NCBI GenBank assembly: GCA_016794925.1
Contig: JAEUIW010000001.1
Coordinates: 354,999-418,998, forward strand
From: Phycisphaerae bacterium
GTDB taxonomy: Bacteria; Planctomycetota; Phycisphaerae; Phycisphaerales; UBA1924
Direction of reading: 5' to 3'
DNA: 64,000 nt
A program made the position numbers and the translations under genes. Positions 1-3,433 of this stretch are shown piece by piece (the stretch's first letter is position 1; every line of letters begins with the position of its first letter). The notes under the pieces were generated by a model. It did no database searches. It was given only the letters and a program-made list of their open reading frames with translations, and had not been told where the DNA came from.

Positions 1-429
1 CCCGTTGCTGTCAGGGTTGCCCGAGCCGTTCGTTCCACATGTGCCTATGCCTTTAATGCCGCAACTCACGAAATTGCCTCCGACGTTGCATTCATCGCCG
101 GGCGACTTGGTGCAGATTTGTATGTCCATAGTGCCGGAACCCGAGCACGCCGTACACGAGCCGGCGCATCCGGATCCGCATCCGACATAATTCCCGTCTC
201 CATTGATAATCGTGGTGCCCGCGGGGCAGCCCGTGGACCAGACGCACTTCCAGTTCGGCGCGTTCGTGCCGGTGTCCTCCGAGAACAGGGCGTAGGTGGT
301 GTCGCCGTCGGCGGTGCGGAGCACGGTCGCTGCCGCGCCCACTCCGCGTGGGGACACCCATGTGACGGGCTCAGGGTTCCGCGCCGGGGCGACGGAGAGC
401 AACGTTCCGATTGCGAGCATGGCGAGCAT
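1..429 (-). CDS. Cys-rich exported small protein, partial (runs off left edge)
   Basis: Reading leftward from ATG at 429, the frame stays open for all 143 codons to the window edge, so the 3' end is missing. The first residues (MLAMLAIGTLLSVAPA) form a short hydrophobic export signal. The rest is Gly/Thr/Asn-rich with ten cysteines, many in short CxxC or CxxxC-like spacings (GCGSGC, SCTACSG), as expected for a disulfide-stabilised extracellular protein. AAGGAG lies 7 nt before the ATG and fixes the start; a second ATG at 420 is possible. I do not recognise a family. It is the last visible gene of a minus-strand cluster with a MauE-pseudopilin fusion and another Cys-rich protein, but it has its own promoter with a 16-G spacer tract. 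A role as a switchable surface or secreted protein is inference. Confidence 0.6.
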   Translation of the reverse strand, partial: MLAMLAIGTLLSVAPARNPEPVTWVSPRGVGAAATVLRTADGDTTYALFSEDTGTNAPNWKCVWSTGCPAGTTIINGDGNYVGCGSGCAGSCTACSGSGTMDIQICTKSPGDECNVGGNFVSCGIKGIGTCGTNGSGNPDSNG

Positions 430-475
430 CGTGTGGCTCCTTAATTGTTTGAGTAACATATCAGGACGGAGAGCG

Positions 476-508
476 AATATACCCCCCCCCCCCCCCCATG
501 ATTGTCAA
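476..508 (-). promoter_or_regulatory. Promoter with 16-G homopolymer in the -35/-10 spacer (candidate phase-variable promoter)
   Basis: On the minus strand a perfect -35 TTGACA (508-503) is followed by ATCAT, then 16 consecutive G (497-482), then TATATT (481-476), one base from the consensus -10. The spacer is 21 nt, longer than the optimal 17, so loss of about four G would give ideal spacing. The box pair sits about 47 nt upstream of the ATG at 429, with a good ribosome site between. Poly-G or poly-C spacers of this kind are known to switch promoters by slipped-strand mispairing, as in Neisseria porA and opc. That it switches here is inference. The tract length may also vary in the read data. 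Confidence 0.6.
482..497. repeat. Homopolymer C16 (G16 on the minus strand)
   Basis: Sixteen uninterrupted C on the plus strand. It is the longest homopolymer I saw in the window. It lies outside any reading frame and exactly between a -35 and a -10 box on the minus strand. Confidence 0.95.
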
Positions 509-616: not shown

Positions 617-1834
617 TCAGCGCACGTCGATGCCGCGCACGCCGTTAGGGGTGTGCATGAGCGCGGGTCTGTTTCGCGCTGGAGCGTCGTGGCCGCCGTA
701 GCGGTGGTCCGCATACTCCCACCCATCACTCCGTTCCGACGGCACGACCGCGCGAAACTCGAACACCTGCGCGTGCCCATCGACGAAGGCGGCGTGAACC
801 GGCATGTTCGGGTCTTCCCAAACCACCGGCTCATGCGGGAGATAGGCCGAGAGCAGGCTCTTCTGTGCCGGGAAGCGCACCTCCGCGGGTCGCGTGAGCC
901 GGAGCTGGCGGGGCGGCACCTCGCGCGTCTCCCCGTTCCAGTAGGTCGGGTCCGCGAGGAAGGAGCAGCTCCAGTAATATGACGAGGCGACGCCGCACTC
1001 GTCGCACGGGCCGCCGGGGTCCCACGGGGAGCGGAACGAGGTGTCGCGGACGTTTCCGTTGTAGTACATGTCCGCGAGGCCGACGTTCCAGAGTGCGTTC
1101 ACATGGAAGTAACGGGACGTGATCGCGAACCCGCCGGTCTCGCAGCGGATGACCGAGAATTCCGCCTCCGGAAAGGTGAGCGCGGGAAAGGAGTCATGGA
1201 AATCCTGCTGGTACAGCGCGAAGACGCGGGCATGCCCCGAGAGCTTCGCCGCGGACTGCGCGTTCATGGCGCTGGTCTTCGCCCGGCCCATCACCGGCAG
1301 GGTGAACGCGACGATGATGCCGATGATGGCGATGCACGCGAGCACCTCGGTCAGTGTGAACGCGCGGGCGTGCCGCGCCGCGGCCGGCGCGGCCGCGTGG
1401 GGGCCCGGGGCGGCCGGCGCGGCAAGGGCGAACGCCAGGGCCGCGCCCAGCGCCGCGTTGCGGATCATGGTCCATTCCCAATCGTCGAGGCGGGAAGCGT
1501 GCGCGGCCAGGACGCCGAGGCATCCGCAGGGAGCGCGGCCGCCCGTCGCTCGCTCCACGGCCAGCATCGCGGTCGCGACGACCACGAACCCGAGCGCGAG
1601 CTGGGTCGTGCGGCGGCGCCGCCAACCGATGAGCCACAGGCCGGCGAGGAGCACCTCGATCGTCGGCACGCCGACGGCGATCGGCATGATCGCCGATCGG
1701 GGGATGGTGTTCCACAGCGCGAGGGAATGGGCGAAGGCCGCGAGCCCCGTCAGTTTGGCAGCGCCGGCCGCCCCGATGACCAGGATCGCGGCGCCCCCGA
1801 GGGCCCGAGACAAGCTGTGCCGATCCGCGGCCAT
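617..1834 (-). CDS. MauE/DoxX-like redox membrane domain fused to a type II secretion-type pseudopilin
   Basis: 405 aa. Residues 1-145 form four hydrophobic helices with a Cys-x-Cys pair (APCGCLG, Cys103/Cys105), the pattern of MauE/DoxX-like proteins that serve periplasmic disulfide chemistry. From about residue 155 a type IV pilin-like leader appears: basic residues, then AFTLTEVLACIAIIGIIVAF, with the Glu at position +5 of the processed Phe. A pseudopilin body follows, containing several Cys and, near the end, HAAFVDGHAQVFEF, resembling planctomycete H/DG-type prepilins. Prepilin peptidase cutting before Phe159 would split the polypeptide into a membrane redox protein and a pilin. The start at 1834 is 11 nt after the preceding Cys-rich frame, with AGAGGA upstream. 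Both domain calls are from motif reading; the exact substrate is unknown. Confidence 0.7.
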   Translation of the reverse strand: MAADRHSLSRALGGAAILVIGAAGAAKLTGLAAFAHSLALWNTIPRSAIMPIAVGVPTIEVLLAGLWLIGWRRRRTTQLALGFVVVATAMLAVERATGGRAPCGCLGVLAAHASRLDDWEWTMIRNAALGAALAFALAAPAAPGPHAAAPAAARHARAFTLTEVLACIAIIGIIVAFTLPVMGRAKTSAMNAQSAAKLSGHARVFALYQQDFHDSFPALTFPEAEFSVIRCETGGFAITSRYFHVNALWNVGLADMYYNGNVRDTSFRSPWDPGGPCDECGVASSYYWSCSFLADPTYWNGETREVPPRQLRLTRPAEVRFPAQKSLLSAYLPHEPVVWEDPNMPVHAAFVDGHAQVFEFRAVVPSERSDGWEYADHRYGGHDAPARNRPALMHTPNGVRGIDVR

Positions 1835-1845
1835 CCCGGGTCCTC

Positions 1846-2265
1846 TCAATGGATCCCGTCGTTCCCCAGGCAGGGCTTCCCAGACGGGGCGCTCGGCGTG
1901 GCAAAGTTGGTCGTGCTGAACTGGTACACGCAGTACCCGGCGACGCTGCATCCGTACACATCCCACCCGCACTCGCACGGCGACCCGGGTGTTATCGACT
2001 CCTTGCCCGCTTCGCCATCCGGCGCGACTTGATAGTGACTCGCGGACGGGTTTCCGGTGATCTGATCGTCGCAGGGGTCCTGCCGCGAGCCGGGCCTGGA
2101 TCCCGGATGACTGGTGCCGGCGGTGAGCAATCAACAGCATGGTGCGCTCATCGCTTGATAGCATGTCGCCGCGTAGACGACGGATGTGAGCAGGCCCGCC
2201 GCGACGAAGCCGGTGACCATGCCGGATGTTCGCGCCGGACCGTTGTGGGTTGCGTCGCGGTTCAT
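1846..2265 (-). CDS. Small Cys-rich exported protein with an in-frame TGA at 2131-2133
   Basis: ATG at 2265 has a strong site (AAGGAG, 6 nt spacing). It encodes a 44-residue N-terminus with a hydrophobic export segment (GMVTGFVAAGLLTSVVYAA), ending ...SAPCC before TGA (2133-2131). The same frame then continues for 94 codons to TGA at 1848-1846. That second part has six Cys (PCECGW, YGCSVAGYC) and the same composition as the Cys-rich protein at the left edge. The part after the TGA begins with TTG but has no ribosome site of its own. Possibilities are a selenocysteine codon, a nonsense mutation making a pseudogene, termination-reinitiation, or a base-call error. It is 37 nt downstream of the 376-aa gene and 11 nt upstream of the MauE-pseudopilin gene, so probably one operon. 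No family recognised. Confidence 0.5.
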
Positions 2266-2302: not shown

Positions 2303-3433
2303 TCACCCGGGTGTCTTCCGCCTGTGATTGAGCCAGATCGCGATCAGCAGCGCGACGCTGAGGCCGCCGATCACCCAGCCGATTCGGTCCAGATCGGCAT
2401 CCTGTTTGATGCGTGATTCCCCGGGCGATTGCCACGGGACCGCTTTGCGGTCCGGGGTAACCTCGGAGTAACGAGCCGGCCCGGTGCGCGCGTCGTTGAG
2501 CTGAACGAACGTCACGCGCCCGCGGAAGGCGTCCGTGCCGGTCAGGCCGGGCACGCGGACGAGCTGCTCGAACTCCGCGGGTTCGAACCGGGCGGTGTCG
2601 AGCACGCGGAGCCGCTGGTTCGGCGCGTCGTCGGTGAAGGTCCGCACGTCGTGCGCGAGCGCGAGCGACAGCGTGGGCTCGTACCGCCACTCGGCCGCCT
2701 GAACCACGGCCCGCTCGACGGCGCCGGACAGCATACGGACCACGAACGTGCTCGTGGAGACCGCGCCCCAACCCGCGGCGGCATCGAACGTCCCGCCGCA
2801 GGTGAACACGATCTCGGCGCCGTCCTTACGCGTGGCCGCGCCGCGGGCGGCCCAGCGTTCGCCGTCAAGCTCGGGCCGGAGGCGAACGCCGTTAGCGAGC
2901 GCCCCCGAGACGCCCGCGTTCACGAGCAACTGCCAGCAGTACGACATCGTGCTGGACACGCTCTTGAGGCTCTGCGCCGCCCGGTGGTCCGCGTTCCCCG
3001 GCGCGAGCGCGAGCGCCTTCGGGGTGAGCGTCCAGGCGACACCGTCGCCCCACACGTTGTCCACGTACGAGCCGTCCTCGGTCGTCCGGCTGCAACGCCA
3101 GCGGTCGCCCGACTTCCAGACCGTGAACTCGTCGTACTCCGGAGTCGGGCGGGCGCGGCGTCGCTGGTACGCCGCCAGACGGATGAGCAACGGATGCTCC
3201 GGGTGGCCCTTGACGGCCTCGCGCATCCGGTCGAGCTCCTCCTCGGGTGGAACGAAGAGCTGCTCGACGCGGTAGGACACCTTCAGCCCGTCGTGGGTGG
3301 GGCCGGCGGCTCCGCCTTGTGTGATCCGATCGAACCAGGCGTCGAACGCGGGCGGGTTCGCCGCGCACGAGCGTCCCGCCGCGAGCAGGACGAGGCCGCT
3401 CATGAGCACGCGCTGGACGGCGGCGTCATGCAT
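2303..3433 (-). CDS. Exported protein with C-terminal membrane anchor, unknown function
   Basis: 376 aa. An N-terminal signal sequence (VLMSGLVLLAAGRSCAA) leads into a largely soluble domain of about 310 residues. One hydrophobic helix near the end (IGWVIGGLSVALLIAIW) is followed by NHRRK, the topology of an extracytoplasmic protein anchored by its C-terminus. I recognise no domain. It is the first gene of the minus-strand cluster with the Cys-rich protein and the MauE-pseudopilin fusion, which suggests a shared role in export or surface display. Start at ATG 3433; the ATG at 3403 would also leave a signal peptide. A TTGACA promoter lies so close upstream that the transcript could be leaderless. 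Confidence 0.65.
   Translation of the reverse strand: MHDAAVQRVLMSGLVLLAAGRSCAANPPAFDAWFDRITQGGAAGPTHDGLKVSYRVEQLFVPPEEELDRMREAVKGHPEHPLLIRLAAYQRRRARPTPEYDEFTVWKSGDRWRCSRTTEDGSYVDNVWGDGVAWTLTPKALALAPGNADHRAAQSLKSVSSTMSYCWQLLVNAGVSGALANGVRLRPELDGERWAARGAATRKDGAEIVFTCGGTFDAAAGWGAVSTSTFVVRMLSGAVERAVVQAAEWRYEPTLSLALAHDVRTFTDDAPNQRLRVLDTARFEPAEFEQLVRVPGLTGTDAFRGRVTFVQLNDARTGPARYSEVTPDRKAVPWQSPGESRIKQDADLDRIGWVIGGLSVALLIAIWLNHRRKTPG

Follow-up and report, generated by a model that had tools for sequence, protein, structure and literature searches.

The window analysed here is a stretch of 64 kb from the genome of a Phycisphaerae bacterium (G000:C111:354999-418998; the assembly comprises 3.66 Mb in 344 contigs), and the subject of this work is a promoter at positions 476-508, the spacer of which contains a run of 16 consecutive G. 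An earlier note on this DNA reported TTGACA and TATATT hexamers on the minus strand, 21 nt apart and with the G run between them, and this layout was confirmed by rereading. Both hexamers had been described as perfect; however, this applies to the -35 box alone, as TATATT differs from the TATAAT consensus by one base. The note further named a Cys-rich exported protein as the product, and a Cys-rich frame of 168 amino acids (aa) indeed follows, whose export is predicted from an N-terminus that, by eye, looks like a signal peptide. Pfam gave no match for this protein. Its gene ends at G000:C111:354921 (position 4922 of L034), and a start at position 459 is possible as an alternative, in which case the product would have 178 aa. 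The features of the locus are:

503..508, minus strand: -35 hexamer TTGACA, read from the sequence; TTGAC recurs at homologous promoters
482..502, minus strand: 21-bp spacer, ATCAT followed by G16, read from the sequence
482..497, minus strand: G16 homopolymer, the proposed slippage site (C16 on the plus strand)
476..481, minus strand: -10 hexamer TATATT, read from the sequence
437..442, minus strand: AAGGAG resembling a ribosome-binding site, 7 nt upstream of the ATG at 429
1..429, minus strand: Cys-rich predicted exported protein, 168 aa, with its ATG at 429 and its 3' end beyond the window

The second-longest run of G or C in the window has nine bases. In a control set from the same genome, made up of the window plus ten stretches of 20 kb each (264 kb in total; genes called by a crude script), runs of at least 8 occur three times in 46,377 intergenic bases, the G16 run included, and 11 times in 217,623 coding bases. 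Comparable tracts have been described in Neisseria meningitidis: the porA promoter carries a poly-G tract between -10 and -35, with 9G, 10G and 11G variants (PMC3639595), and the poly-C tract of opc, originally 11C, had become 12C or 14C in 5 of 17 clones (PMC6389960). As in promoters of this kind, the homopolymer at 476-508 lies between recognisable -35 and -10 hexamers. Judged by the sequence comparisons described below, the G16 promoter very probably is one of a set of likely phase-variable promoters, which would act by slipped-strand mispairing and work like porA and opc. Phase variation is what we infer from these comparisons, and an influence of tract length on expression is likewise presumed.

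The place of the tract is kept among homologs of the Cys-rich gene, and its base is not. Matches to the Cys-rich protein of the window were found in eight of 163 genomes of the same family, its own genome included; two weak matches (L344 and L345) did not look homologous and were dropped, which leaves six homologous loci. A homopolymer lies upstream of the gene in five of the six:

L339: G11, spacing 16 bp
L340: T11, spacing 18 bp
L342: G11, spacing 19 bp
L346: C10, spacing 12 bp
L341: C13 after TTGACAG, without a clean TANNNT
L343: ordinary 16-bp spacer, no run

The slipped-strand reading proposed in the earlier note holds up in this respect, since many homologous genes have a tract in the spacer of their promoter, with a fixed place, a varying base and a varying length. 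Because runs of G, C and T share one place in homologs, it is length rather than base that is kept. This exchange is compatible with a role of length and difficult to square with one that depends on the base. It bears on the possibility that the G run acts as an invariable structural element, such as a G-quadruplex or a protein-binding site, which is read by its sequence or shape rather than by its length. Sixteen consecutive G could form a quadruplex, which counts in favour of such an element, and three species (L083-L085) share an unchanged G7 spacer; the latter is also expected under slippage, because short runs seldom slip. However, the run is not always G in homologous promoters, some of which have C runs or T11 in the same spacer; a T run is incapable of forming a quadruplex, and tract lengths differ between relatives. 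A fixed G element was rejected on account of the C and T runs and is considered very unlikely.

The earlier note had described a single promoter. This promoter is real but not isolated, as it belongs to a set of eight sites in its own genome. The pattern TTGA-N2-9-G7-N0-20-TANNNT gave nine rows there, which correspond to eight distinct sites, and the reversed pattern gave two; the version with a C run gave two matches versus none for its reverse. Spacings at the eight G sites are 16, 16, 16, 17, 18, 20, 21 and 21 bp. Three of the sites precede genes for small Cys-rich proteins (168, 88 and 93 aa), four precede genes of a family called PEHP here for the motif P-[E/D]-H-P (L038, L040, L041 and L043), and the eighth precedes a gene for an exported-looking protein of at least 491 aa.

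Runs of at least 11 G start at 24 positions of this genome, some of them between -35-like and -10-like hexamers. Several others are possible artefacts, found in blocks of low complexity, next to N gaps or where a contig ends: L014-L017, L028-L029 and L031-L032 show blocks of G15-G56, runs flanked by N gaps and, close to contig ends, G and C runs that face each other, all of which two-colour sequencing may have produced. The artificial look of these other runs lends some weight to the idea that G16 itself is a false poly-G, created by two-colour Illumina chemistry or by assembly. However, both flanks of G16 are coherent, with the -35 box on one side and the -10 box, ribosome-binding site and gene on the other; homologous runs are present in many independent assemblies, including a genome in one contig, and runs of C or T occur on the promoter strand as well. 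An artefact was therefore dropped as an explanation for positions 482-497, where it is extremely unlikely, and retained for other G runs of the assembly.

An ATG abuts the G run at 476-508 and at L040, that is, at two of the eight sites of the genome, and could serve a translational switch, in which only some tract lengths open a frame into the Cys-rich gene. With G15 or G18 this ATG would open into the frame of 178 aa; with G16 the frame stops after 12 residues. However, an abutting ATG was found in none of the 22 G-run rows of PEHP relatives, an ATG between the -35 box and the run in only two of 39 PEHP rows, and many runs consist of C and one homolog carries T. In addition, the Cys-rich gene has an AAGGAG and ATG of its own further downstream, and a start within the spacer would precede the expected start of the transcript. 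As a general mechanism, such a switch was rejected on the scarcity of abutting start codons, and its probability is minute.

The PEHP genes offer a broader sample. An alignment of nine PEHP proteins (A1, 17-30% identity to the first sequence) was searched against the 163 genomes of the family and found PEHP in 66 genomes at 134 places. Ninety places were examined, 30 given as loci by the search and 60 added to them, chosen for their complete N-terminus; L040, L041, L043, L092 and the PEHP gene of the window are among the 134 places and outside these 90. A run of at least 8 G or C, lying no more than 150 bases ahead of the profile match, was found for 41 of 87 PEHP genes (21 G and 20 C; three of the 90 loci with fewer than 100 bases upstream were dropped) and for 4 of 170 control genes of the own genome, the G16 gene included (Fisher P 1e-18), a comparison in which PEHP genes are anchored on the profile match, controls on predicted start codons, and controls stem from one genome. 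The value of 41 is slightly low, because L214, which carries G11, was mis-anchored at a contig end and scored as tract-free. In the 90 loci, 45 runs were counted per 13,144 upstream bases versus 13 per 178,203 bases elsewhere, and no runs lie within the first 400 bases of the PEHP match. A run of at least 7 between TTG... and TANNNT, within 250 bases, was found at 39 of 88 loci (22 G and 17 C, spacings 10-27; two loci with fewer than 60 bases upstream were dropped). Protein searches, in each of which about 8,000 candidates were scored, returned two proteins with A1, apparently from the own genome, and four with one relative.

According to the earlier note, a tract length that is invariant across relatives would speak against a slippage promoter. 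Lengths were compared for promoter pairs with conserved flanks, all from loci other than 476-508, and no congener was among the relatives searched; metagenome assemblies give consensus lengths, which may deviate by one or more bases. At homologous promoters the lengths differ:

G117/G056: G9/G11, 89% identity
G032/G084: G9/G6, 91% identity
G075/G104: G11/G9, 94% identity
G089/G046: C18/C7AC11, 76% identity
G075/G005: G12 versus an A-interrupted G4/G10, 82% identity
two G032 paralogs: G5/G9, 88% identity
two neighbouring copies in G035: G6/G8, similarity stops at the tract

In L077, a one-base difference from L076 about 25 bases past the start codon shifts the Cys-rich frame in G104, which is either a true frameshift or an assembly error.

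The distance between the hexamers also varies with the tract. In the spacing test, the -10 box was placed just before the start codon nearest to the profile match, ties were given to the nearest TTGAC, and a usable promoter was obtained at 37 of the 90 loci and none at 53. Among promoters with runs of at most 5, 13 of 14 have 16-18 bp; among those with tracts of at least 8, this holds for 10 of 20, the others having 10, 13, 19-21, 23 and 26 bp (Fisher P 0.011). Three loci with runs of 6-7 have spacings of 8, 13 and 19 bp. As in the porA/opc kind, tract promoters thus depart from the ordinary distribution of 16-18 bp. Many start codons lie about 6 bases past TANNNT, which suggests leaderless transcripts.

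Beyond the family, the strict pattern TTGAC-N1-9-G9-N0-8-TANNNT was searched in 392 genomes, an even sample of the phylum, and gave 57 matches (a few of them overlapping) versus three for the reversed pattern. The matches fall in 33 of these 392 genomes, among which the own genome ranks highest with seven. In G035, a single contig of 3.6 Mb, a loose pattern with G7 has 13 matches versus one reversed. Poly-G spacer promoters of 11-19 bp, several of them before Cys-rich exported-looking proteins, were also observed in G129, a member of another family of the order (L316-L318), and the set therefore reaches past one bacterial family. Among named genomes, TTGACA-N1-8-G11-N0-4-TANNNT occurs in at least 118 stretches; the matches listed (80 of at least 118) come from Clostridia, Bacilli, Helicobacter, Microcystis, planctomycetes and others. 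Since G11-spacer sites span many phyla, the kind of promoter is widespread. Many of the sites L094-L173 lie before open reading frames (ORFs) that look like those of signal-peptide proteins, lipoproteins or prepilins, e.g. in Candidatus Ancillula, in metagenome-assembled genomes of Clostridia and Bacilli, and in Microcystis.

Several observations weigh against the view that these tracts form a switch, in addition to the different anchoring of the controls, the consensus nature of the lengths, the constant G7 spacer and the run-free promoter of L343. Speed and reversibility of the length changes are presumed, the comparison covering one genome per species. PEHP genes without a run of at least 8 (46 of 87) are about as common as those with a tract, and no G or C run of at least 8 lies upstream of the PEHP gene of the window, within the window. 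Equal lengths were found too, namely G9/G9 in G117/G203 and G12/G12 in G075/G104 (L074/L075). The strict G9 pattern matched in one of nine other genomes sampled from the same family, and the loose G7 pattern is noisy, with 208 matches versus 84 reversed, in 83 versus 53 of 119 family genomes. Finally, 20 of 21 genomes, the own included, have a MutS_I domain. Slippage would thus proceed with MutS present and without a boost from the absence of mutS; loss of mismatch repair was discarded as its cause on this basis, which concerns MutS and not MutL.

Alternatively, slippage in a GC-rich genome might produce the run passively, so that it drifts over the time scale of species in a tolerant spacer and neither switches fast nor has a use. 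In favour of drift are the length data, which come from species and not from populations, the homologs of equal length and the half or so of PEHP genes that lack a run. However, it does not explain why upstream runs are rare in control genes and frequent in PEHP genes, why homologs acquired runs of different bases in one and the same place and why the runs of the own genome are mostly found on one gene class. Passive drift is hence regarded as unlikely, and a length-based switch as the better explanation of the tracts.

Promoters of the sigma-70 type work well with spacings of 16-18 bp and are weak with others. In the proposed switch, polymerase slippage would add or remove single G and thereby change the length of the run within a population. 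Each change would shift the spacing into or out of the optimum of 16-18 bp; if spacing sets transcription, the downstream Cys-rich gene would be switched or tuned. The assembled state with 21 bp would be weak or off, and G12 would give the optimal 17 bp. The products are predicted to leave the cytoplasm and reach the surface. If about eight promoters switched independently of each other, a clonal population would contain many combinations of exported proteins; it is likely that sister cells would differ in their exported proteins through such a random, length-based switch.

On its upstream side, the G16 promoter is adjoined by a fusion of a MauE domain with a prepilin-like motif, beyond which further genes lie:

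617..1840, minus strand: fusion of a MauE domain and a prepilin-like N-methylation motif (PF07291, 1.9e-15; PF07963, 1.4e-4; both over the cut-off)
1846..2130, minus strand: second small Cys-rich protein, 94-aa open frame, no Pfam match
2303..3433, minus strand: PEHP-family protein, 376 aa, recognised by alignment A1 and the family search

The open frame of the fusion starts at 2164, and its true start probably lies near 1840, after the Cys-rich gene; MauE scores 57.7 bits in the ORF 617-2164 (curated cut-off 27). The PEHP protein has a signal-like N-terminus and a C-terminal helix that resembles a membrane anchor. The gene order PEHP, Cys-rich, MauE-prepilin is found in the window and in L304. 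ORFs with MauE over the cut-off lie downstream of five more homopolymer promoters (L304 862-2157, L306 4101-5429, L307 4752-6020, L308 1681-2967 and L309 2088-3407). The N-methylation motif in the MauE frame is over the cut-off in L308, L309 and the window, below it in L304 and L306, and was not found in L307; L305 has an ORF with the prepilin motif and without MauE. Several MauE-prepilin ORFs end in a GxxGRD motif and lie near small Cys-rich proteins, and MauE may help in the formation of disulfide bonds in the latter.

The PEHP orthologs of three congeners (L080 383-1495, L081 1493-2617 and L215) form a mosaic. Over the first 450 columns, DNA identity is 86-98% per 90 columns; beyond column 450, it drops to 49-61% between G056 and G117 and stays at 78-90% between G056 and G203. 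This pattern suggests that the distal half of PEHP is exchanged. A fold was predicted with AlphaFold2 on seven sequences (predicted local distance difference test, pLDDT, 55.8), and the top structural matches of the model were mostly LolA, LolB, RseB and LprG; this result is too weak for a claim on the function of PEHP. Taking the promoters, operons and the mosaic together, we lean towards the picture of a Phycisphaerales family with a repertoire of switching promoters, in which homopolymers of any base would be kept for their length alone, the promoters of several paralogous operons with PEHP, Cys-rich and MauE-prepilin genes would each flip independently, and exchange of the distal part of PEHP would alter what is displayed.

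The system shares with porA a promoter whose spacer holds a G run and which serves a gene for an exported protein (predicted as such here), and several promoters here have the 9-11 G given for porA (PMC3639595). It differs in that several promoters occur per genome, in a presumably free-living planctomycete, mostly with good TTGAC boxes and with unrelated genes downstream. The likeness to opc, where the length of a poly-C tract tunes transcription, lies in the C runs, which are the longest run in 20 of 41 tract-bearing PEHP genes; there, however, one gene with a C run is concerned, and here G, C and T interchange among homologs of one gene. Homopolymers near promoters of surface-protein genes also occur in the fim genes of Bordetella and in outer-membrane protein genes of Helicobacter. 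To our knowledge, phase variation by homopolymer promoters has been studied mainly in animal-associated pathogens. The earlier note knew of no planctomycete promoter of this kind, and a literature search on phase variation and slippage in planctomycetes and Phycisphaerae, in which subscription literature was thinly covered, likewise found none described; none appears in relevant passages of PMC2831843, PMC3639595, PMC6389960, PMC4060949 and PMC3711429. Over-represented G patterns are reported for Isosphaera pallida in PMC4060949. The kind of promoter is thus known and widespread; the lineage, the set of several operons, the exchange of bases and the downstream gene families seem to be new.

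If the proposed switch is true, Planctomycetota would have their first described case of promoter-based phase variation, and bacteria that are not known as pathogens would have a bet-hedging system of surface variation. The swap of G, C and T at homologous promoters is unusually clean evidence that selection keeps spacer length itself, and it makes the question of length testable from long-read metagenomes. It is tempting to speculate that the switching is directed against phages or protist grazers. A set of many loci in a little-known planctomycete lineage, acting on a gene family that Pfam does not name, would show that environmental bacteria, too, make use of random surface switching.
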